NCBI RefSeq assembly: GCF_015291705.1
Contig: NZ_CP030050.1
Coordinates: forward strand, 3,162,001-3,226,000
Direction: 5' to 3'
Origin: Bradyrhizobium arachidis
GTDB taxonomy: Bacteria; Pseudomonadota; Alphaproteobacteria; Rhizobiales; Xanthobacteraceae
Length of the DNA: 64,000 nt
Shown here: piece by piece, positions 55,704 through 63,812 of the stretch
Layout: each line of letters starts with the position of its first letter
How positions within the stretch are numbered: position 1 is the first letter of the stretch
Made by a program: the position numbers and the translations under genes
The notes under the pieces: model-generated
What the model was told of the DNA's origin: nothing
The model's database searches: none
Seen by the model: the letters and a program-made list of their open reading frames with translations, nothing else

Positions 55704-57434
55704 CTAGCGCGCGTGCAGCAGCGCCAGCAGCACGACCACCGCGCAGGCAAGCACCGCCGAGGTCAGCTTCCAGAACATCAGCGGGCTGCGCTCCAGGAGC
55801 GGCGTGATCCGCGTGTCGAGATAGGCCGGATTGGGCGTGCGCAGCTCGTAGACGAATTCGGACAGGTCCTCGTGGCGCTTGTAGGGATCGGGATGCAGCG
55901 CGCGGCGCAGCGCGCCGTCGACCCAGGCGGGCACGTTGCGGTCGTCATCGGCCGGGCGGTATTTCAGCCGCCGCACGTCCGCCTTGCGCCGGATCCTGGC
56001 GACCTGGGTGCCGTAGGGGAGCTTGCCCGTCAGCATCTGGTAGCAGATCACGGCGAGCGAAAACATGTCGGAGCGCGGCGAGCCGCCTTGCCTGAGAAAA
56101 TACTCCGGCGCGGTGTACTGGACCGTTCCCAGGATATCGTCGGTCTCGTCTGGCGGCGCGGCCTCGGCGACGCCTGCGACCCTGACCGAGCCGAAGTCGA
56201 TGATCTTCGCGGTGCCGGTCTTGTCGATCAGGATGTTGTCTGGCCTGAGATCCTGATGCAGCATCTCCATGCGGTGGAAGGCGCGCAGGCCCGCGGCGAT
56301 CTGCTCGACGAGGCCGCGGACGGTCTCGAGATCGGGACGTGGATTGTCGGTCATCCACTGCCGCAAGGTTTGGCCTTCGACGAATTCGGTCGCGACATAG
56401 AGATAGCTGCGCCGCCGCGATTGTGAGAGCGGTTTGAGCACATGCGGGCTGTCGATCCGGCGCGCGATCCACTCCTCCATCAGGAAGCGCTTCAGATAGG
56501 CGGCGTTGTCGCGCAGGTCGATCGACGGCAGTTTGAGCGCGACCGGCTGCTCGGTCTCGGCGTCGACGGCAAGATAGATGTGGCTGCGGCTGCTGCCGTG
56601 GATCTCCCGGACAATCCTGTAGCCGTCGAACATCGCCCGCGGTTCCGGCAACGGCGGCAGCGGCAGCTCCGAGGTCTGATTGAAGATGCCGGAGGGCTCG
56701 CGCTGCGGCACCGCGTCGATGCGCAGGATCTGCACGGTGATGTTGTCGTCGCTGCCGCGCCGGTAGGCTTCCTCGACGATTGCCTTCGCCGCGGCGTCGA
56801 GCTCGCCTGCATGCTCGTTGATGGCGCTCGTGACGAAGCGCGGGTCGACGAATTCATAGGCGCCGTCGGTCGCGAGAAGGAAAGTGTCGCCGGCCTCGAT
56901 CTCCAGCGCCTGGTAGTCGATCTCGAGCTGCGGGTTGATGCCAAGCGCGCGGCCGAGATAGGTCTGCTCGGATGAGACGATGATGCGGTGATCGTCGGTC
57001 AGCTGCTCGAGCGCCTTGCCGGCGAGGCGGTAGATGCGGCAGTCGCCGACATGGAAGATGTGCGCGGTGGTCGCCTTGATGACCATGGCGCTCAGCGTGC
57101 AGACATAGCCCTTGTCGCGGTCATAGGCATATTGGCTCTTGCGCGTCTGCGCGTGCAGCCAGGAATTGGTCGCGTCCAGCACGCGGCGGGCGGAGGTCTT
57201 CACCGTCCAGGATTCCGACGTGCAGTAATAGTCCATCAGGAAGCTCTTGACCGCCGACTCGCTGGCGATCTGGCTCACCGTGCTGCTGGAGATGCCGTCG
57301 GCGAGGACGGCTGAAATGCCCTTCAGACTGAGCAGCGGCTCGTCCGGAATCAGGACACCGTGAAAATCCTGGTTGACGGGCTTGCGACCCTTGTCCGAGT
57401 GCTGGCCGATCGAAATCAGGAGTCCGCGCGTCAT
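55704..57434 (-). CDS. PP2C phosphatase fused to a Ser/Thr kinase, with C-terminal membrane anchor
   Basis: A 576-residue fusion. Residues about 1-245 are a PP2C phosphatase with metal Asp in NQDFHGV, AVLADGISSS, LATDGAYEFVD and SDDNITV. Residues about 268-535 are a protein kinase: Lys in PVALKLP, catalytic loop HQDLRPDNILID (HQD where most kinases have HRD), DFGS and APEYF. A single helix near the C-terminus (FWKLTSAVLACAVVVLLALL) tethers it to the membrane. Such fusions sit beside nitrate/nitrite transport genes in several proteobacteria. It may phosphorylate or dephosphorylate a transport component. The alternative start at 57446 is possible. Confidence 0.88.
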   Translation of the reverse strand: MTRGLLISIGQHSDKGRKPVNQDFHGVLIPDEPLLSLKGISAVLADGISSSTVSQIASESAVKSFLMDYYCTSESWTVKTSARRVLDATNSWLHAQTRKSQYAYDRDKGYVCTLSAMVIKATTAHIFHVGDCRIYRLAGKALEQLTDDHRIIVSSEQTYLGRALGINPQLEIDYQALEIEAGDTFLLATDGAYEFVDPRFVTSAINEHAGELDAAAKAIVEEAYRRGSDDNITVQILRIDAVPQREPSGIFNQTSELPLPPLPEPRAMFDGYRIVREIHGSSRSHIYLAVDAETEQPVALKLPSIDLRDNAAYLKRFLMEEWIARRIDSPHVLKPLSQSRRRSYLYVATEFVEGQTLRQWMTDNPRPDLETVRGLVEQIAAGLRAFHRMEMLHQDLRPDNILIDKTGTAKIIDFGSVRVAGVAEAAPPDETDDILGTVQYTAPEYFLRQGGSPRSDMFSLAVICYQMLTGKLPYGTQVARIRRKADVRRLKYRPADDDRNVPAWVDGALRRALHPDPYKRHEDLSEFVYELRTPNPAYLDTRITPLLERSPLMFWKLTSAVLACAVVVLLALLHAR

Positions 57435-57501
57435 CGTCGTCACCAAGGCGAAGAGAGCCTTACCCTAACCGGGCGAGGCTCTCTTGTTGAGGTGCCTGCG
57501 A

Positions 57502-58341
57502 TCAGGCCGCGACGCGGGGCGGCGTCACCTTGCCAGGCTGGCGCTTCGGCAGGGTCATGACATGCGTGGCGTAAAGGGTCATGCCGGTAAAGGCGAGGCC
57601 GCCGACGAGATTGCCGAGCACGGTCGGGATCTCGTTCCAGATCAGATAGTCCATGATCGAGAACTTCGCGTGCAGCATCAGGCCGGACGGGAACAGGAAC
57701 ATGTTCACGACCGAGTGCTCGAACACCATGTAGAAGAACACCAGGATCGGCATCCACATCGCGATGACCTTGCCGGGGACCGAGGTCGAGATCATGGCGC
57801 CGACAACGCCGGTCGAGACCATCCAGTTGCAGAGCATGCCGCGCATGAACAGCGTCGCCATGCCGGCCGCGCCATGCGCGGCATAACCCAGCGTCCGGCC
57901 TTCGCCGATATTGCCGATGGCGGTGCCGATCTTGTCGGGGTCCTGCGTGAAGCCGAAGGTGGTGACGAAGGCCATCATGAACGCGACCGTGAAGGCGCCG
58001 CCGAAATTGCCCAGGAAGACCAGGCCCCAGTTGCGCAGCACGCCACCGAACGTGACGCCGGGGCGCTTGTCGATCAGGGCGAGCGGCGAGAGCACGAACA
58101 CGCCGGTGAGGAGGTCGAAGCCCAGCAGGTACAGCATGACGAAGCCGACCGGAAACAACAGTGCGCCGACCAGCGGCTGGCCGGTGTTGACGTTGATGGT
58201 GACGGCGAACCAGGCGGCGAGGGCGAGAATGGCACCAGCCATATAGGCGCGGATGACCGTATCCCGGGTGGACATGAAGATCTTGGACTCACCCGCATCC
58301 ACCATCTTGGTGACGAATTCCGAAGGCGCGAGATACGACAT
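57502..58341 (-). CDS. Formate/nitrite transporter family (FNT) channel
   Basis: A 279-residue protein with six helices. Family features are FMMAFVTTFGFTQDP, the inner-pore segment MLCNWMVSTGVVGAM and the second-half signature VFEHSVVNMFLFPSGLML. It moves nitrite or formate across the inner membrane. Beside nrtABC and narK, nitrite is the likely cargo. The start at 58341 has AAGGA 7 bases upstream. The leader of about 220 bases carries a sigma54-type promoter and hairpins. The kinase-phosphatase follows on the same strand after 67 bp. Confidence 0.9.
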   Translation of the reverse strand: MSYLAPSEFVTKMVDAGESKIFMSTRDTVIRAYMAGAILALAAWFAVTINVNTGQPLVGALLFPVGFVMLYLLGFDLLTGVFVLSPLALIDKRPGVTFGGVLRNWGLVFLGNFGGAFTVAFMMAFVTTFGFTQDPDKIGTAIGNIGEGRTLGYAAHGAAGMATLFMRGMLCNWMVSTGVVGAMISTSVPGKVIAMWMPILVFFYMVFEHSVVNMFLFPSGLMLHAKFSIMDYLIWNEIPTVLGNLVGGLAFTGMTLYATHVMTLPKRQPGKVTPPRVAA

Positions 58342-58374
58342 CAATGGTTCCTTTTGCTTCGTAAGTGAGATCGA

Positions 58375-58392
58375 CGCTCTCGCAAGAGAGCG
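58375..58392 (-). promoter_or_regulatory. Leader hairpin before the FNT gene
   Basis: CGCTCTC and GAGAGCG arms surround a four-base loop, 34 to 51 bases upstream of the FNT start codon on its leader RNA. It may belong to an attenuator; no T-run follows. Confidence 0.4.
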
Positions 58393-58553
58393 GCTGAACG
58401 TCATTGGCCGTGCGGGTGGCCTGCCGCGCACGAGAGTTGGGAGATTTGGAAGCCCTGGGAATCGCGTCACGACGACTGAGCCGAGAAGGGCCGCGAAGCA
58501 AGTTGAGCTTCCTCTTGCGGCCGCCAGAGGCCGCAGCAATGCGGCAAGCCGCA

Positions 58554-58565
58554 GTCTTCGTTGAC
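58554..58565 (-). promoter_or_regulatory. A1xxG4 hexaloop hairpin at the 5' end of the FNT leader
   Basis: On the minus strand GTC-AACGAA-GAC. The six-base loop has A at 1 and G at 4. It begins 14 bases after the -12 element. The stem is short (3 bp, then a mismatch), so it is the weakest of the three such hairpins. Confidence 0.4.
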
Positions 58566-58575
58566 ACCTAGATAG

Positions 58576-58592
58576 AAGCAAGTTGCGTGCCG
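58576..58592 (-). promoter_or_regulatory. Sigma54 (RpoN) -24/-12 promoter of the FNT gene
   Basis: On the minus strand CGGCACGCAACTTGCTT, with GG-N10-GC spacing, differing from the consensus TGGCACG-N4-TTGCT only at the first base. The first G is 112 bases from the centre of the palindrome at 58696-58710. Confidence 0.75.
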
Positions 58593-58695
58593 AGCGCGAG
58601 AATTCTGAAAGCCGAGTGATATCAGTGCGATGGCGCGCCATTGGATCGCGCCTTTGGACGCCCGCCGGCCTCTTGCATAAGCGACTGCACAAGAC

Positions 58696-58710
58696 TTGTG
58701 CGCCGCACAA
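58696..58710. promoter_or_regulatory. Palindromic enhancer between divergent sigma54 promoters
   Basis: TTGTGCGCCGCACAA (centre 58703) is equidistant, 112 bases, from the -24 GG of the FNT and nrtA promoters. The same sequence and spacing occur before narK. An NtrC-like activator is the natural candidate, by position and pathway. Confidence 0.7.
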
Positions 58711-58812
58711 AGATTGAGCAAGCCGCAAATTCGGCGAGCGGATCTCGCCTGCGGCAGGCTGGCGCAGAGCCTATAACCCATTCAACAAGAATGGCTTTTT
58801 GCCATCGTGGGC

Positions 58813-58829
58813 TTGGCATGAAGCTTGAA
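58813..58829 (+). promoter_or_regulatory. Sigma54 -24/-12 promoter of nrtABC
   Basis: TTGGCATGAAGCTTGAA has GG-N10-GA spacing. It matches the narK promoter (TTGGCACGGAAATTGAA) at 13 of 17 positions, including all key bases. Confidence 0.7.
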
Positions 58830-58841
58830 TAGTTCCATGTC

Positions 58842-58859
58842 GACGCCATTGAAGCCGTC
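58842..58859 (+). promoter_or_regulatory. A1xxG4 hexaloop hairpin at the 5' end of the nrtA leader
   Basis: GACGCC-ATTGAA-GCCGTC. The stem pairs 4 bp, has one C.C mismatch, and closes with C-G around loop ATTGAA (A1, G4). It begins 15 bases after the -12 element. The narK leader has the same fold at 62297-62314. Confidence 0.5.
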
Positions 58860-58925
58860 CCGCGAGACTTCTCATCCGATTTGCTGACGCCACCAGACGG
58901 GGGTCTCCCCCGCCATGCGTCCGCA

Positions 58926-58943
58926 TGCGCCAAAGCCGGCGCA
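58926..58943 (+). promoter_or_regulatory. Second hexaloop hairpin in the nrtA leader
   Basis: TGCGCC-AAAGCC-GGCGCA has a perfect 6-bp stem and a six-base loop with A1 and G4. Together with 58842-58859 it gives the two-hairpin layout known for ANTAR targets. A GGGGG-TCT-CCCCC stem lies just upstream. Confidence 0.5.
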
Positions 58944-59014
58944 ATCCCACGGACGGGCTGCTCGCGCGCACTGACGCCAACAATTCTGCAACGATGCAAA
59001 GGACGACACTGCCT

Positions 59015-60325
59015 ATGACCAAGCGCACCCGCCAGCCTTCGGGCCTGAGCCGCCGTCAATTGTTGAAGGCCACCGGCTCGACCGTCGCTCTTCTCGCCGC
59101 CGCCAAGCTGAATTTCCCCGCCGGCGCCTTCGCGCAGGATGCAGGCCCCGAGGTCAAGGGCGCCAAGCTCGGCTTCATCGCTCTGACCGACGCGACCCCG
59201 CTGTTCGTTGCGAAAGAGAAGGGCATCTTCGCCAAATACGGCATGCCCGATGTCGAGGTGCAGAAGCAGGCGTCCTGGGGCACGACGCGCGACAATCTCG
59301 TGCTCGGCTCCGAAGGCAACGGCATCGACGGCGCCCATATCCTCACCCCGATGCCGTATCTGATCTCGGCCGGCAAGGTGACGCAGAACAACCAGCCGAC
59401 GCCGATGTACATCCTGGCGCGGCTGAACCTGAACGGTCAGTGCATCTCGGTCGCCAAGGAATATGCCGACCTCAAGGTCGGCATCGACACCGCGCCCTTC
59501 AAGGCGGCGCTCGAGAAGAAGAAGGCCGGCGGCAAGGCGGTGAAGGCCGCAATGACCTTCCCGGGCGGCACGCATGACCTGTGGATCCGCTACTGGCTCG
59601 CCGCTGGCGGCATCGATCCGGACAAGGACATCGAAACCATCGTGGTGCCGCCGCCGCAGATGGTCGCCAACATGAAGGTTGGCACCATGGATTGCTTCTG
59701 CGTCTGCGAGCCCTGGAATCTCCAGCTCATCCATCAGGACATCGGCTACACCGCGATCACCACCGGCGAGCTCTGGGACAAGCATCCCGAAAAGTCGTTC
59801 GGCATGCGCGCGGCCTGGGTCGACAAATATCCGAAGGCGGCGAAGGCGCTGCTGATGGCGGTGATGGAAGCCCAGCAATGGGCCGAGAAGGCGGAGAACC
59901 GCGAGGAAGCCGCGGTGATCTGCGCCAAGCGCCAGTGGATCAACTGCCCGGTCGAGGACATCACCGACCGCATGAAGGGCAAGTTCGACTACGGCACCGG
60001 CCGCGTCGTCGACAACTCGCCGCAGCAGATGCGGTTCTGGAAGGACCAGGCCTCCTATCCGTTCCAGAGCCACGATCTCTGGTTCCTCACCGAGGACATC
60101 CGCTGGGGCAAGTACGAGCCCGGCTTCGACACCAAGGCGTTGATCGCCAAGGTCAACCGCGAGGACCTCTGGAAGGATGCGGCGAAGACGCTCGGCGTGG
60201 TTAGCTCCGATATCCCGGCCTCGACCTCGCGCGGCAAGGAGACCTTCTTCGACGGCAAGGTGTTCGATCCCGAAAATCCGGCTGCCTATCTGAAGTCGCT
60301 CGCGATCAAGCGCGTCGAAGTCTGA
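59015..60325 (+). CDS. nrtA: NrtA, nitrate ABC transporter substrate-binding protein
   Basis: A 436-residue protein. The N-terminus has a twin-arginine signal (LSRRQLLKATGSTVALLAAA). The body is of the CmpA/NrtA family: AKLGFIALTDATPLFVAKEK, LVLGSEGNGIDGAHILTPMP and DCFCVCEPWNLQLI. It binds nitrate (or nitrite) in the periplasm. The start at 59015 has AAAGGA upstream; ATG at 58994 is an alternative. First gene of nrtABC. Confidence 0.93.
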   Translation: MTKRTRQPSGLSRRQLLKATGSTVALLAAAKLNFPAGAFAQDAGPEVKGAKLGFIALTDATPLFVAKEKGIFAKYGMPDVEVQKQASWGTTRDNLVLGSEGNGIDGAHILTPMPYLISAGKVTQNNQPTPMYILARLNLNGQCISVAKEYADLKVGIDTAPFKAALEKKKAGGKAVKAAMTFPGGTHDLWIRYWLAAGGIDPDKDIETIVVPPPQMVANMKVGTMDCFCVCEPWNLQLIHQDIGYTAITTGELWDKHPEKSFGMRAAWVDKYPKAAKALLMAVMEAQQWAEKAENREEAAVICAKRQWINCPVEDITDRMKGKFDYGTGRVVDNSPQQMRFWKDQASYPFQSHDLWFLTEDIRWGKYEPGFDTKALIAKVNREDLWKDAAKTLGVVSSDIPASTSRGKETFFDGKVFDPENPAAYLKSLAIKRVEV

Positions 60326-60334
60326 TGGAGCCTC

Positions 60335-60356
60335 GCGGCCGCCTTCGGGCGGCCGC
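60335..60356 (+). terminator. Hairpin between nrtA and nrtB
   Basis: GCGGCCGCC-TTCG-GGCGGCCGC is a perfect 9-bp stem with a stable TTCG loop and no T-run. It likely reduces read-through or protects the nrtA message, so the binding protein is made in excess over the permease. Confidence 0.6.
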
Positions 60357-60389
60357 ATCGTCCTTGCGGAAAGCCGGAGAGGGATTTCG

Positions 60390-61286
60390 ATGAACATGCC
60401 TGCCACGAAGATTGAGGTTGAGACCGCGACGCCTGCCGCGACCATTGCGCCAGTCGTCGCGATGACGCCAAAGCGTCCGCCGCGCGCGGAGAGCTATGCG
60501 CGCATGGCGCGGGAGCTCGCCGTGCGCGTGATCCCGCCGCTGGTCGTGATCGCGCTGCTGACGCTGGTCTGGGAGCTGGTCTGCCGCCGTGCAGGCTCTG
60601 CGCTACCGCCGCCGTCAAAGGTGTTCAAGGACACCAGGGAGTTGATCTTCGATCCGTTCTTCGACCATGGCGGCATCGACAAGGGCCTGTTCTTGCATCT
60701 GTCCGCCAGCCTCCAGCGCGTCGCGCTCGGCTATTCGCTCTCGGCGATCGCCGGCATCGCGCTCGGCGTGCTGGTCGGGCAGTCGGTCTGGGCGATGCGC
60801 GGGCTCGATCCGCTGTTCCAGGTCTTGCGCACCATTCCACCGCTGGCCTGGCTGCCGCTCTCGCTCGCCGCGTTCCGCGACGGCCAGCCGTCGGCGATCT
60901 TCGTCATCTTCATCACCTCGATCTGGCCGATCATCATCAACACCGCGGTCGGCATCCGCAACATTCCGCAGGACTATCGCAACGTTGCGGCGGTGGTGCA
61001 GCTCAATCCGCTCGAGTTCTTCGCCAAGATCATGATCCCGGCGGCGGCGCCCTACATCTTCACGGGACTTCGCATCGGCATCGGGCTGTCCTGGCTCGCC
61101 ATCATCGCGGCTGAAATGCTGATCGGCGGCGTCGGCGTCGGCTTCTTCATCTGGGATGCCTGGAATTCCTCGCATATCAGCGAGATCATCCTGGCGCTGT
61201 TCTATGTCGGCATCGTCGGCTTCGTGCTCGATCGCCTGATCGCGAGCCTCGGCAAGATCGTCACCCGCGGCACCGCGCAGAACTGA
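60390..61286 (+). CDS. nrtB: NrtB, nitrate ABC transporter permease
   Basis: A 298-residue permease with about six helices. QVLRTIPPLAWLPLSLAAFR and the EAA-type loop (NVAAVVQLNPLEFFAKIMIP, then AAAPYIFTGLRIG) are as in NrtB/SsuC permeases. It forms the channel for nitrate. GAGAGGG precedes the ATG. The ATPase gene follows after 13 bp. Confidence 0.92.
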   Translation: MNMPATKIEVETATPAATIAPVVAMTPKRPPRAESYARMARELAVRVIPPLVVIALLTLVWELVCRRAGSALPPPSKVFKDTRELIFDPFFDHGGIDKGLFLHLSASLQRVALGYSLSAIAGIALGVLVGQSVWAMRGLDPLFQVLRTIPPLAWLPLSLAAFRDGQPSAIFVIFITSIWPIIINTAVGIRNIPQDYRNVAAVVQLNPLEFFAKIMIPAAAPYIFTGLRIGIGLSWLAIIAAEMLIGGVGVGFFIWDAWNSSHISEIILALFYVGIVGFVLDRLIASLGKIVTRGTAQN

Positions 61287-61299
61287 GGGAGAAGGGCAA

Positions 61300-62094
61300 A
61301 TGACCGCCTATCTGAAGCTCGATCACATCGACAAGATCTTCACCCGCGGCGCGGCGACGACCGAGGTGCTGAAGGACATCAGTCTCACGATCGAGAAGGG
61401 CGAATACGTCTCGATCATCGGCCATTCCGGCTGTGGCAAGTCGACCCTGCTCAACATCATCGCGGGATTGACGGGTGCCACCACCGGCGGCGTGCTGCTG
61501 GAGAACCGTGAGGTCAACTCGCCCGGGCCCGATCGCGCCGTGGTGTTCCAGAACCACAGCCTGCTGCCGTGGCTCACCGTCTACGAGAACGTCAAGCTCG
61601 GCGTCGACAAGGTCTTCGCCAGGACCAAGACCAGGGCCGAGCGCGACGCCTGGGTGATGCACAATCTCAACCTGGTGCAGATGGCGCATGCCAGGGACAA
61701 GCGTCCCTCGGAAATCTCCGGCGGCATGAAGCAGCGTGTCGGCATCGCCCGCGCGCTGGCGATGGAGCCGAAGGTGCTGCTGCTCGATGAGCCGTTCGGC
61801 GCGCTCGACGCGCTGACGCGGGCGCATTTGCAGGACTCGGTGATGGCGCTGCATCAGAAGCTCGGCAACACCATTCTGATGATCACCCACGACGTCGACG
61901 AGGCCGTGCTGCTCTCCGACCGCATCGTGATGATGACGAACGGGCCGAGCGCACGGATCGGTGAGGTGCTGGACGTGCCGCTGGCGCGGCCGCGCAAGCG
62001 GCTCGAGCTTGCGACCAACGCGACGTATCTGAAGTGCCGGCAGCGCGTCCTCGAATTCCTCTACGAGCGTCATCGCTTCGTAGAGGCCGCGTAA
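61300..62094 (+). CDS. nrtC: Nitrate ABC transporter ATPase (NrtC/NrtD type)
   Basis: A 264-residue ATPase with Walker A GHSGCGKST, Q-loop VVFQNHSLLPWLTVYENV, signature ISGGMKQRVGIARALA, Walker B LLLDEPFGALD and H-loop MITHDVDEAV. It lacks the C-terminal nitrate-binding domain of cyanobacterial NrtC, so it resembles NrtD. It powers NrtAB. A 338-bp regulatory gap follows before narK. Confidence 0.92.
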   Translation: MTAYLKLDHIDKIFTRGAATTEVLKDISLTIEKGEYVSIIGHSGCGKSTLLNIIAGLTGATTGGVLLENREVNSPGPDRAVVFQNHSLLPWLTVYENVKLGVDKVFARTKTRAERDAWVMHNLNLVQMAHARDKRPSEISGGMKQRVGIARALAMEPKVLLLDEPFGALDALTRAHLQDSVMALHQKLGNTILMITHDVDEAVLLSDRIVMMTNGPSARIGEVLDVPLARPRKRLELATNATYLKCRQRVLEFLYERHRFVEAA

Positions 62095-62142
62095 ACCAAA
62101 GGTTAATGCGCGAGACGAGCGCGCCTAAATAATTGACATCAA

Positions 62143-62175
62143 GCTCAATCCTTGTGCGCCGCACAAGGATTGAGC
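62143..62175. promoter_or_regulatory. Long palindromic enhancer upstream of narK
   Basis: Arms GCTCAATCCTTGTGC and GCACAAGGATTGAGC (15 bp, perfect) flank GCC. The core TTGTGCGCCGCACAA equals the site at 58696-58710, and the similarity continues rightward (GATTGAGC, CGCAAATT, GCG). Its centre is 112 bases from the -24 GG of the narK promoter. As RNA it could also end the nrtABC transcript. Confidence 0.7.
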
Positions 62176-62268
62176 GAATCGCAAATTTAGCGTGCGGAAA
62201 AGCCCTGCGAAGATTTCGGGCAATGCGAATAACGTCCTGAAATCCCTGTGTTTCCAGCGTGCGCGCAA

Positions 62269-62285
62269 TTGGCACGGAAATTGAA
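62269..62285 (+). promoter_or_regulatory. Sigma54 -24/-12 promoter of narK
   Basis: TTGGCACGGAAATTGAA matches the consensus (C/T)TGGCACG-N4-TTGC except for A at the -12 C. GG-N10-GA spacing as at nrtA. Confidence 0.75.
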
Positions 62286-62296
62286 ACACCTTTTCC

Positions 62297-62314
62297 GACG
62301 CCAACGACGACGTC
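62297..62314 (+). promoter_or_regulatory. A1xxG4 hexaloop hairpin at the 5' end of the narK leader
   Basis: GACGCC-AACGAC-GACGTC. Four pairs, one C.A mismatch, a closing C-G and loop AACGAC (A1, G4), the same fold as at 58842-58859. It starts 14 bases after the -12 element. Confidence 0.5.
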
Positions 62315-62349
62315 CCTCAACATCATCAATCAGCATCGTGAACTCGCCA

Positions 62350-62408
62350 CCGGGGAGAAGCCCCGGAGCGTGCCTCCGTGACCGGAGGCTGAGCCTGCAA
62401 CGACGCAG
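62350..62408 (+). promoter_or_regulatory. Three consecutive hairpins in the narK leader
   Basis: CCGGGG-AGAAG-CCCCGG (62350-62366), GCCTCC-GTGACC-GGAGGC (62372-62389) and CTGC-AACGAC-GCAG (62395-62408). The last has an A1xxG4 loop and its CTGCAACGA(C/T)GCA sequence recurs at 58986-58998, just before nrtA. They probably form the terminator/antiterminator part of the leader. Confidence 0.45.
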
Positions 62409-62432
62409 CGGTGAGCCTGGAAGGGATACTCA

Positions 62433-63812
62433 ATGACGAAGAATCCTACTTGGATTTCAGACTGGCGCCCCGAAGACGAGGCGTTCTGGAATGCGACTGG
62501 CAAGACTATCGCGCGACGCAACCTGATCTGGTCGATCGTGGCCGAGCATATCGGCTTCTCGGTCTGGCTGATCTGGAGCATCGTCACCACCAAGCTGCCG
62601 CAGGCGGGCTTCCACTACACCACCGACCAGCTGTTCCAGCTCGTCGCGGTGCCGGGCCTGATCGGCGCCCTGATGCGCTTTCCCTACACTTTCGCGGTGA
62701 CGACCTTCGGCGGCCGCAACTGGACCATCTTCAGCGCGGCGATCCTGTTCATTCCGACGCTGTCGCTCGCCTACTTCGTCAGCCAGCCCGATACGCCGTT
62801 CTGGCTGATGCTGTTGGTCGCCTCGACCGCCGGTCTCGGCGGCGGCAACTTCGCCTCCAGCATGACCAACATCTCCTTCTTCTTCCCTGACCGGATGAAG
62901 GGATGGGCGCTCGGCCTCAACGCTGCAGGCGGCAATATCGGCGTTTCCAGCGTGCAGCTCCTGACCCCGATCCTGATGACGCTCGCCGTCATCAACCTGT
63001 TCCAGGCTTCCCCCGTCGACGGCATCTTCCTCCAGAACGCCGGGCTGATGTGGGTGCTGCCGATCGCGATCGCGGTGTTTGGCGCGGTGTTCTTCATGAA
63101 CAACCTCACCACGGCGAAATCGTCGATCAAGAACCAGCTCGCGGTAGTCAAGCGCAAGCACACCTGGATCATGGCGTATCTCTATATCGGCACGTTCGGA
63201 TCCTTCATCGGCTACTCCGCGGCGTTCCCGCTGTTGCTCAAGACGCTGTTTCCGTCGGTGACGATCTCGATCGCCTTCCTCGGTCCGCTGGTCGGCTCGC
63301 TGGCCCGTCCGTTCGGCGGCTGGCTTGCCGACAAGGTCGGCGGCTCCATCATCACGTTCTGGAATTTCATCGTGATGGCGGGCGCCACCGTCGGCGTGGT
63401 CTATTTCGTCGGACAGAAGGATTTCGTCGGCTTCCTCTCGATGTTCCTGATCCTGTTCGTGACCACGGGCATCGGCAACGGCTCGACCTACCGCATGATC
63501 CCCTCGATCTTCCGCGAGCAGAACCTGTTCAGGGTGCGCGGGCAGGGCGACGTCGCGCGTGCGGCTGCCTTGAAGACGGCGAGCATCGAGAGCGGTGCGG
63601 CGGTCGGGTTCATCGGCGCGGTCGGTGCCGTCGGCGGCTATCTGATCCCGAGCGGCTTCGGCAAGTCGATCGCCCTGACCGGCGGTCCGCAGCTCGCGCT
63701 CGCGATCTATCTCGGCTTCTACGCCTCGTGCCTGGCTTTGACCTGGTGGTTCTACCTGCGTCGCAGCCCGCAGGGCGAAGGCGCGCCGAGCCTTGCGGAA
63801 GCAAGGGTCTAA
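62433..63812 (+). CDS. narK: NarK, nitrate/nitrite MFS transporter
   Basis: A 459-residue transporter with 12 helices. Both nitrate signatures are present: GGGNFASSMTNISFFFP with GLNAAGGNIGVSSVQL, and GIGNGSTYRMIPSIF. It imports nitrate and/or exports nitrite. AAGGGA lies 7 bases before the ATG. In B. diazoefficiens narK heads narK-bjgb-flp-nasC, which joins nitrate assimilation to nitric-oxide detoxification; the next gene here fits that order. Confidence 0.94.
   Translation: MTKNPTWISDWRPEDEAFWNATGKTIARRNLIWSIVAEHIGFSVWLIWSIVTTKLPQAGFHYTTDQLFQLVAVPGLIGALMRFPYTFAVTTFGGRNWTIFSAAILFIPTLSLAYFVSQPDTPFWLMLLVASTAGLGGGNFASSMTNISFFFPDRMKGWALGLNAAGGNIGVSSVQLLTPILMTLAVINLFQASPVDGIFLQNAGLMWVLPIAIAVFGAVFFMNNLTTAKSSIKNQLAVVKRKHTWIMAYLYIGTFGSFIGYSAAFPLLLKTLFPSVTISIAFLGPLVGSLARPFGGWLADKVGGSIITFWNFIVMAGATVGVVYFVGQKDFVGFLSMFLILFVTTGIGNGSTYRMIPSIFREQNLFRVRGQGDVARAAALKTASIESGAAVGFIGAVGAVGGYLIPSGFGKSIALTGGPQLALAIYLGFYASCLALTWWFYLRRSPQGEGAPSLAEARV

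Follow-up and report, generated by a model that had tools for sequence, protein, structure and literature searches.

A mirror-symmetric double site, probably an NtrC enhancer, shared by divergent sigma54-type promoters of predicted nitrite and nitrate transporter genes and repeated before narK in Bradyrhizobium

In a 64-kb stretch of the Bradyrhizobium arachidis genome (the window), the divergently oriented genes of a formate/nitrite transporter (FNT) and of a nitrate ABC transporter (nrtABC) are separated by intergenic DNA carrying a 35-bp double site of the NtrC type, and a second copy of this dyad lies upstream of narK. We consider it likely, with good confidence, that the dyad acts as a shared NtrC enhancer for FNT and nrtABC and that its copy serves narK in the same manner. 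The proposal of the initial annotation that a nitrite transporter (FNT) and a nitrate transporter (nrtABC) would be driven together is supported for the transporters as predicted.

FNT (57502-58341, minus strand) encodes a 279-aa protein matching Pfam PF01226 (E 6.1e-61). On the plus strand, nrtA (59015-60325; nitrate ABC transporter binding protein, 436 aa, PF13379) is followed by an nrtB-like ORF (60390-61286; PF00528), an nrtC-like ORF (61300-62094; PF00005) and narK (62433-63812), whose 459-aa product is an MFS nitrate/nitrite transporter (PF07690). The gene order nrtABC-narK corresponds to blr2803-06 in PMC4724949, which describes separate promoters for nrtABC and narK of B. japonicum and growth on nitrate that is unaffected by deletion of nrtABC (blr2803-05). 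Since this deletion is without a growth effect, the transporter role of nrtABC is only a predicted one. The names dusB, phasin, NasS and the presumed nirA used below are likewise readings of translations.

Each of the three genes is preceded by a sigma54-type -24/-12 element: CGGCACGCAACTTGCT for FNT (58577-58592, minus strand, first -24 G at 58591), TGGCATGAAGCTTGAA for nrtA (58814-58829, plus strand, first -24 G at 58815) and TGGCACGGAAATTGAA for narK (62270-62285, plus strand, first -24 G at 62271). The arrangement first noticed, two divergent sigma54-type promoters with an enhancer-like element between them, is therefore borne out by the elements at 58577-58592 and 58814-58829. The FNT promoter has the form GG-N10-GC, and those of nrtA and narK match the -24/-12 pattern with a deviation at -12 (GG-N10-GA). 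The -12 region reads TTGAA at nrtA (58825-58829) and narK (62281-62285), which is kept in most relatives, and TTGC at FNT. An 18-base segment at the nrtA promoter has a mean pair identity of 0.97 among 60 distinct loci. Sigma54 scores were calculated with weights of our own, with no published matrix behind them, and 35 sigma54-like sites reach a score of at least 16 within the 64-kb window.

Related loci were collected in two ways. The region was matched in at least 123 of 146 genomes of the genus, and 60 relatives were chosen from the 123 matching genomes for a match covering the dyad, so that dyad prevalence among them is biased. A second set, the best 80 of 530 confirmed loci, was picked by the NrtA protein alone; one of its members (L240), with 14 bases upstream only, was left out. 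The two sets overlap in some genomes, and the unique sequences amount to 60 FNT loci, 64 narK leaders and 117 dyad loci.

The minus-strand promoter is associated with the FNT gene. A -24/-12 element with a score of at least 17 was detected on the minus strand in 70/70 loci with a divergent FNT gene (within 500 bp) and in 0/70 loci where FNT was not found, so that gene and element are concordant in all 140 usable loci, with no mixed cases; in five of the 70 FNT-less loci fewer than 800 bases precede nrtA, so that FNT could not show up there, and three of the 70 have a minus-strand site of score 16 at 131-132. An ORF encoding a fused PP2C-type phosphatase and protein kinase (PF13672, PF00069; 55704-57446, minus strand) comes after FNT in the window. 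Its relatives show the same distribution, being present in 70/70 divergent-FNT loci and 0/70 FNT-less loci, and its product is possibly a regulator of the FNT transporter.

The palindrome to which the initial annotation drew attention, TTGTGCGCCGCACAA, occupies 58696-58710 with its centre at 58703, and both of the distances assigned to it proved correct: the first -24 G lies 112 bases away at FNT (58591) and likewise at nrtA (58815). It is not the single shared site for which it was taken. The 15-mer instead consists of the inner half-sites of two abutting NtrC-type 17-mers, predicted site 1 (TGCACAAGACTTGTGCG, TGC-N11-GCG; 58686-58702, centre 58694) and predicted site 2 (CGCACAAAGATTGAGCA, CGC-N11-GCA; 58704-58720, centre 58712), whose centres are 18 bp apart and which together form the 35-bp dyad (58686-58720). 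Within site 1 lies a further perfect palindrome of 15 bp, centred at 58694. Among the 60 distinct FNT-nrtA loci the outer TGC of site 1 and the outer GC[A/G] of site 2 are both invariant (60/60), the inner GTGCG is present in 60/60 and the inner CGCAC in 57/60. In the consensus of relatives the half-site positions are invariant and the central base of the dyad is variable; one consensus set was built without L101 (promoter at 126). A CGC-N11-GCG stretch (CGCAAATT...) follows shortly after the dyad on the nrtA side (58724-58740) and again on the narK side (62180-62196). The stretch at 58724-58740 is well conserved, the FNT side is without a clear mirror of it, and from its sequence it is possibly a third, weaker NtrC-type site.

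The copy upstream of narK (62142-62176, centre 62159) was found as the second match of the FNT-nrtA intergenic DNA in the same genome. It holds a 33-bp perfect palindrome, GCTCAATCCTTGTGCGCCGCACAAGGATTGAGC (62143-62175), and its centre lies 112 bases from the first -24 G of narK, as at FNT and nrtA. All 75 narK loci drawn from the same stretches as the nrtA sets, i.e. located beside nrtA, have the dyad with at most two mismatches, at 112 bases in 70 and at 113 in 5. Ten narK dyads in other genomes or settings are placed at 112 (L285, L294, L295), 114 (L291), 115 (L299) or 137 bases (L284, L287-L290); with seven of the ten at 114-137, the 112-base spacing is not universal.

Odd palindromes with 7-bp arms occur 12 times in the 64-kb window, three of them belonging to this system, so that such a palindrome alone is not rare. 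At up to two mismatches the 15-mer was found 32 times per strand in this genome as compared to 28 times per strand for its reversed control, i.e. no enrichment over that control was seen. What raises the palindrome above chance is its recurrence. The longer pattern TTGTGCGNCGCACAANNNNTNNGC was found in at least 77 of 98 genomes of the genus, at most twice per strand among the matches listed, and its reversed control in none of the 98 among the matches listed. In this genome the matches listed for TTGTGCGNCGCACAANNNNTNNGC are those at nrtA/FNT and narK only. At 16 further TTGTGCGNCGCACAANNNNTNNGC loci a narK, nrtA or FNT relative adjoins the dyad in 15; at L293, close to a contig end, no such relative was seen beside it.

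Conservation in related genomes, by which the initial proposal was to be judged, holds for the palindrome as part of the dyad, which was detected with at most three mismatches in 130 of the 140 usable nrtA loci, window included; the exact spacing is not conserved across lineages. Three of the ten loci in which the dyad was missing at this threshold span less than 300 bases upstream of nrtA. In the less biased set chosen by NrtA, the dyad (at most three mismatches) was present in 69/79 loci and FNT in 21/79. The dyad without FNT also occurs in records labelled Afipia, Tardiphaga, Rhodoplanes and Xanthobacteraceae, and three loci labelled Rhodopseudomonas (L201, L208, L209) have it with three to four mismatches. 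A contig labelled Streptomyces sp. AcH 505 (L206) encodes an NrtA 89% identical to that of the window and carries the dyad with two mismatches at 113; this contig is probably mislabelled or contaminating.

Based on its sequence, the dyad has in NtrC probably its best candidate binder. The rhizobial NtrC motif TGC-N11-GCA was reported together with binding and footprinting evidence from Sinorhizobium meliloti (PMC10746234). Compared to this motif, the outer ends of the dyad fit (GCA or GCG) in 60/60 loci, whereas the inner ends are GCG/CGC and not GCA/TGC. The same GCG-ended form recurs in this genome about 2.3 kb ahead of ntrC, directly before an ORF read as dusB: the site there, TGCACAAGAATTGTGCG, differs from site 1 by one base. 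This agreement in 16/17 bases with a site before the operon read as dusB-ntrBC supports NtrC as the likely activator, as initially suggested. TGCACAAGAATTGTGCG was present in 30/30 loci, 29 of them exact, and 12 of the 30 show it as the reverse complement; these loci are the closest 30 from 83 genomes with a match, out of 98. The pattern TGCAC-N7-GTGC[A/G] has 44 strand-wise matches in the genome, and the form TGCACAAG-N2-TTGTGCG occurs only at the window and dusB sites. At the glnK promoter, sites of the TGC-N11-GCA type lie 114 and 153 bases from -24; among the 30 best of 98 glnK loci the distal one was present in 30 and the proximal one (at most one mismatch) in 18. An NtrC is encoded in this genome at L169, with 746.4 bits to TIGR01818 (cut-off 558.6) and the GAFTGA loop that contacts sigma54.

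We propose that under nitrogen limitation phosphorylated NtrC would assemble on the dyad, one dimer on each of the abutting 17-bp sites at 58686-58702 and 58704-58720, and would loop over about 112 bp in either direction to promote open complex formation by sigma54 RNA polymerase at FNT (minus strand) and nrtABC (plus strand). The second copy of the dyad would drive narK over an equal distance. The transcripts would then meet a leader of the NasT antitermination type, such that full expression would require both nitrogen limitation, through NtrC, and nitrate or nitrite, through NasS-NasT.

The leader part of this proposal derives from a hairpin, P1, that opens all three leaders. It reads GACGCC[ATTGAA]GCCGTC at nrtA (58842-58859, plus strand, one C-C stem mismatch), GTC[AACGAA]GAC at FNT (58554-58565, minus strand, 3-bp stem) and GACGCC[AACGAC]GACGTC at narK (62297-62314, plus strand, one C-A stem mismatch). 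Its hexaloop conforms to the ANTAR rule of A at position 1 and G at position 4 (PMC3369931) in 60/60 nrtA, 64/64 narK and 60/60 FNT distinct leaders. The P1 stem of FNT is 3 bp long in 55/60 leaders, those of nrtA and narK carry one mismatch, and P1 with a longer stem was also found in all six FNT leaders from other arrangements. A second hairpin, P2, is formed with 4 bp in 64/64 narK leaders, occurs in 54/60 FNT leaders, with a mismatch in 52 of these, and is weak at nrtA. The genome encodes a NasT at L172 (ANTAR domain 73.3 bits, above the cut-off) adjoining an ORF read as NasS. The NasT-type hexaloop at the head of each of the three leaders implies that expression probably requires both nitrogen limitation and nitrate; because the second hairpin is clear at narK only, this NasT antitermination layer on the FNT, nrtA and narK leaders is probable but not settled. 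For the narK leader a NasT hairpin had already been predicted (PMC6759348), and a narK-lacZ fusion was reported to be undetectable in a nasT mutant under assimilation (PMC4724949). Under denitrifying conditions narK was up, not down, in a nasT mutant (PMC6759348), implying that the NasT layer is conditional. The same study reported a RegR box upstream of narK. Also at L172, a sigma54-like element, TGGCACGCAACTTGTA, follows the ORF read as nasS and precedes the presumed nirA, with an NtrC-type site, TGCCTATCTTTTGGGCA, 132 bases upstream.

The exact midpoint position, central to the initial annotation, holds for the window (112/112) and is confined to one lineage, with equal arms in just 32 of the 60 distinct FNT-nrtA loci; of the remaining loci, 21 have arms differing by 1 base, five by 2, and one each by 6 and by 11, so that the arms are within 1 base of each other in 53/60. 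Equal distance is not the key feature of the system either, as the dyad also serves narK alone, nrtA alone (at 111-138) and FNT together with other genes at unequal distances. In FNT-less loci the distance from dyad to nrtA is 111-117, 126-127 or 138 bases. Three loci (L287-L289) have FNT and narK on one dyad with FNT/narK arms of 142/137, 143/137 and 142/137, and three others (L286, L294, L295) combine FNT with a second type of nrtA (34-36% identity) with arms of 167/113, 176/113 and 135/113, indicating that enhancer and FNT were combined with varied partners. The shared enhancer recurs in three arrangements and the midpoint does not. Taken together, the distances observed (101, 106, 110-117, 126-127, 135, 137-138, 142-143, 167 and 176) do not fall on any single 10.5-bp ladder, and we therefore claim no helical phase rule.

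The length of DNA between dyad and promoter seems to be held within a lineage, though not across lineages. The spacers have diverged, with mean pair identities of 0.63 (nrtA side), 0.54 (FNT side) and 0.79 (narK), yet show few gap events per pair (0.35, 0.81 and 0.15, respectively), while the leaders are better kept (0.89, 0.86 and 0.92) and show many (4.59, 5.39 and 1.86). Concordantly, the fraction of pairs with equal length is 0.71, 0.45 and 0.85 for the nrtA, FNT and narK spacers compared to 0.18, 0.07 and 0.15 for the leaders. Gap counts were taken from MAFFT alignments of diverged spacers, whereas the equal-length fractions are independent of the alignment; the leaders are 1.5-2.5 times as long as the spacers, which accounts for part, not all, of the contrast. 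Rare length change in diverged spacers next to better-kept leaders suggests that spacer length is apparently held within a lineage.

These data can be read in two ways, both compatible with an NtrC enhancer. There is about an even chance that the exactly central position is coincidental and goes back to shared descent: an enhancer of nrtA would have been inherited, FNT with its own promoter would later have come to lie nearby, and the equal distance would have no meaning of its own. The FNT-less loci, which retain the dyad for nrtA at any of the distances given above, the unequal arms in all six loci with one dyad for FNT and either narK or the other nrtA type, and the restriction of equal arms to 32/60 loci are what such a history would leave behind. 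It fits less well with spacers that have diverged to 0.54 and 0.63 and still seldom change length, unlike the better conserved leaders, and with arms that agree to 1 base in 53/60. A more ambitious reading, which we put forward tentatively and judge somewhat improbable, is that the 35-bp double site is a portable, mirror-symmetric NtrC enhancer cassette with the same action towards either side, which different lineages have reused for FNT-nrtA, FNT-narK and FNT with the second nrtA type, and that within a lineage the DNA leading to the promoter is under selection for its length and not for its sequence.

Binders other than NtrC were weighed as well. Another sigma54 activator, e.g. NtrX or an orphan enhancer-binding protein, might occupy the dyad, given that the genome encodes several further proteins with sub-threshold matches to the NtrC model, two of which span its whole length, and that the inner half-sites depart from the usual NtrC ends; we regard this as unlikely, because the genome's closest 17-mer match is found at the operon read as that of ntrC itself and glnK has the same type of site at about the same distance. 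NifA sites have the form TGT-N10-ACA and FixK/FNR sites the form TTGAT-N4-ATCAA; neither site type fits, the first as the element here is TGT-N7-ACA, the second as its pattern is absent. It is very unlikely that the palindrome is instead a site for PhaR, the polyhydroxybutyrate regulator, which would couple nitrate uptake to carbon storage with the NtrC sites lying elsewhere. The stretch TGCGCCGCACAA fits the PhaR consensus TGCRNYGCASMA, which was obtained from phaP1 and phaP4 footprints and an alignment of further promoters (PMC6201568), and a third exact copy of TTGTGCGNCGCACAA in the genome (L035) lies upstream of a small ORF read as phasin. A 12-mer consensus does not account for the conserved bases of the dyad, as it leaves the outer half-sites unexplained although these are invariant in 60/60 distinct loci. 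Moreover, the phaP4 site overlaps the -35 region according to PMC6201568, whereas the dyad keeps a distance of 112 bases to the sigma54 element of each of three promoters, and the PhaR literature searched makes no mention of nrtA, narK or blr2803 in its main text. At L035 itself, positions 1472-1515 hold two near-copies of TTGTGCGNCGCACAA, 29 bases apart and one of them weaker, before the phasin-like ORF. The TTGTGCGNCGCACAA copies there are probably PhaR sites; the same core may serve an unrelated regulator, which would mislead motif searches. A structural or termination role, as a cruciform or bidirectional terminator, is hardly credible: a hairpin is conceivable for the 33-bp perfect palindrome of the narK copy, but the element precedes both promoters, lacks a run of T behind it, and its invariant positions are the half-sites of a protein motif with a variable base at the centre. 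An Rfam scan of 57000-63000 returned five matches to unrelated families, every one below its gathering score.

Published work on strain DOA9 bears on the shared NtrC enhancer. nrtA, nrtB and fnt were reported as repressed in rpoN mutants of this strain (PMC13207237), a paper that also gives a distance range for comparison with the 112-base spacing. In the DOA9 locus (L226) the dyad is found at 112 and 111. The RpoN site that PMC13207237 gives for nrtA, CGGGGGTTCCCCCGT at -103, is in L226 (4884-4898) a GC-rich palindromic stretch within the conserved leader, and the first G of the conserved -24/-12 element TGGCATGAAGCTTGAA is at -201, which puts it 84 bases before CGGGGGTTCCCCCGT; the printed nrtA site thus looks misplaced. 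The printed fnt site, CGGCAGGCCGCCCGC, also differs from the conserved FNT element located 111 bases from the dyad.

A single activator region between divergent sigma54 promoters is known from hyc/hyp with FhlA in Escherichia coli and from flbG/flaN in Caulobacter, and nasF of Klebsiella oxytoca is activated by NtrC and, in addition, by NasR. The former two differ from the present case in activator and genes, and here the arms are near-equal at about 112 bp and the module is repeated at a third promoter. The likeness to glnK and nasF lies in a -24/-12 element with sites of the TGC-N11-GCA type upstream, to which nasF adds an ANTAR leader, with antitermination by NasR (PMC3369931); the two sites at glnK of this genome are 39 bp apart, whereas those described here abut, are mirror-symmetric and face two divergent promoters. 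With the NasS-NasT leaders of Bradyrhizobium diazoefficiens (nosR, nirA, narK) the system shares a NasT-type hairpin and the narK gene itself; the hexaloops seen here also on the nrtA and FNT leaders are a difference, these genes not being named as NasT targets in the available text of PMC6759348 and PMC4724949. The resemblance to Bradyrhizobium PhaR sites is limited to the 12-base core, since the outer half-sites, the sigma54 context and the fixed distance are left unexplained by the consensus (PMC6201568). NtrC/sigma54 control combined with an ANTAR leader is thus known logic, and its fused two-site form here is unusual. The literature searched contained no account of this enhancer at FNT-nrtA or narK.

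Altogether, the shared NtrC enhancer offers a testable wiring of nitrate and nitrite transport in a genus of soybean symbionts, in which one enhancer would serve two transporters, the same enhancer would also serve the nitrite exporter gene narK, and a second, nitrate-sensing check would be made at the RNA level. It is also offered as an explanation for the joint fall of nrtA and fnt in rpoN mutants. If the cassette reading is true, short-range NtrC enhancers would be less tolerant of spacing changes than is usually taught. Independently of that reading, the conserved length of the diverged spacers offers a natural data set on how strictly an NtrC loop is measured.
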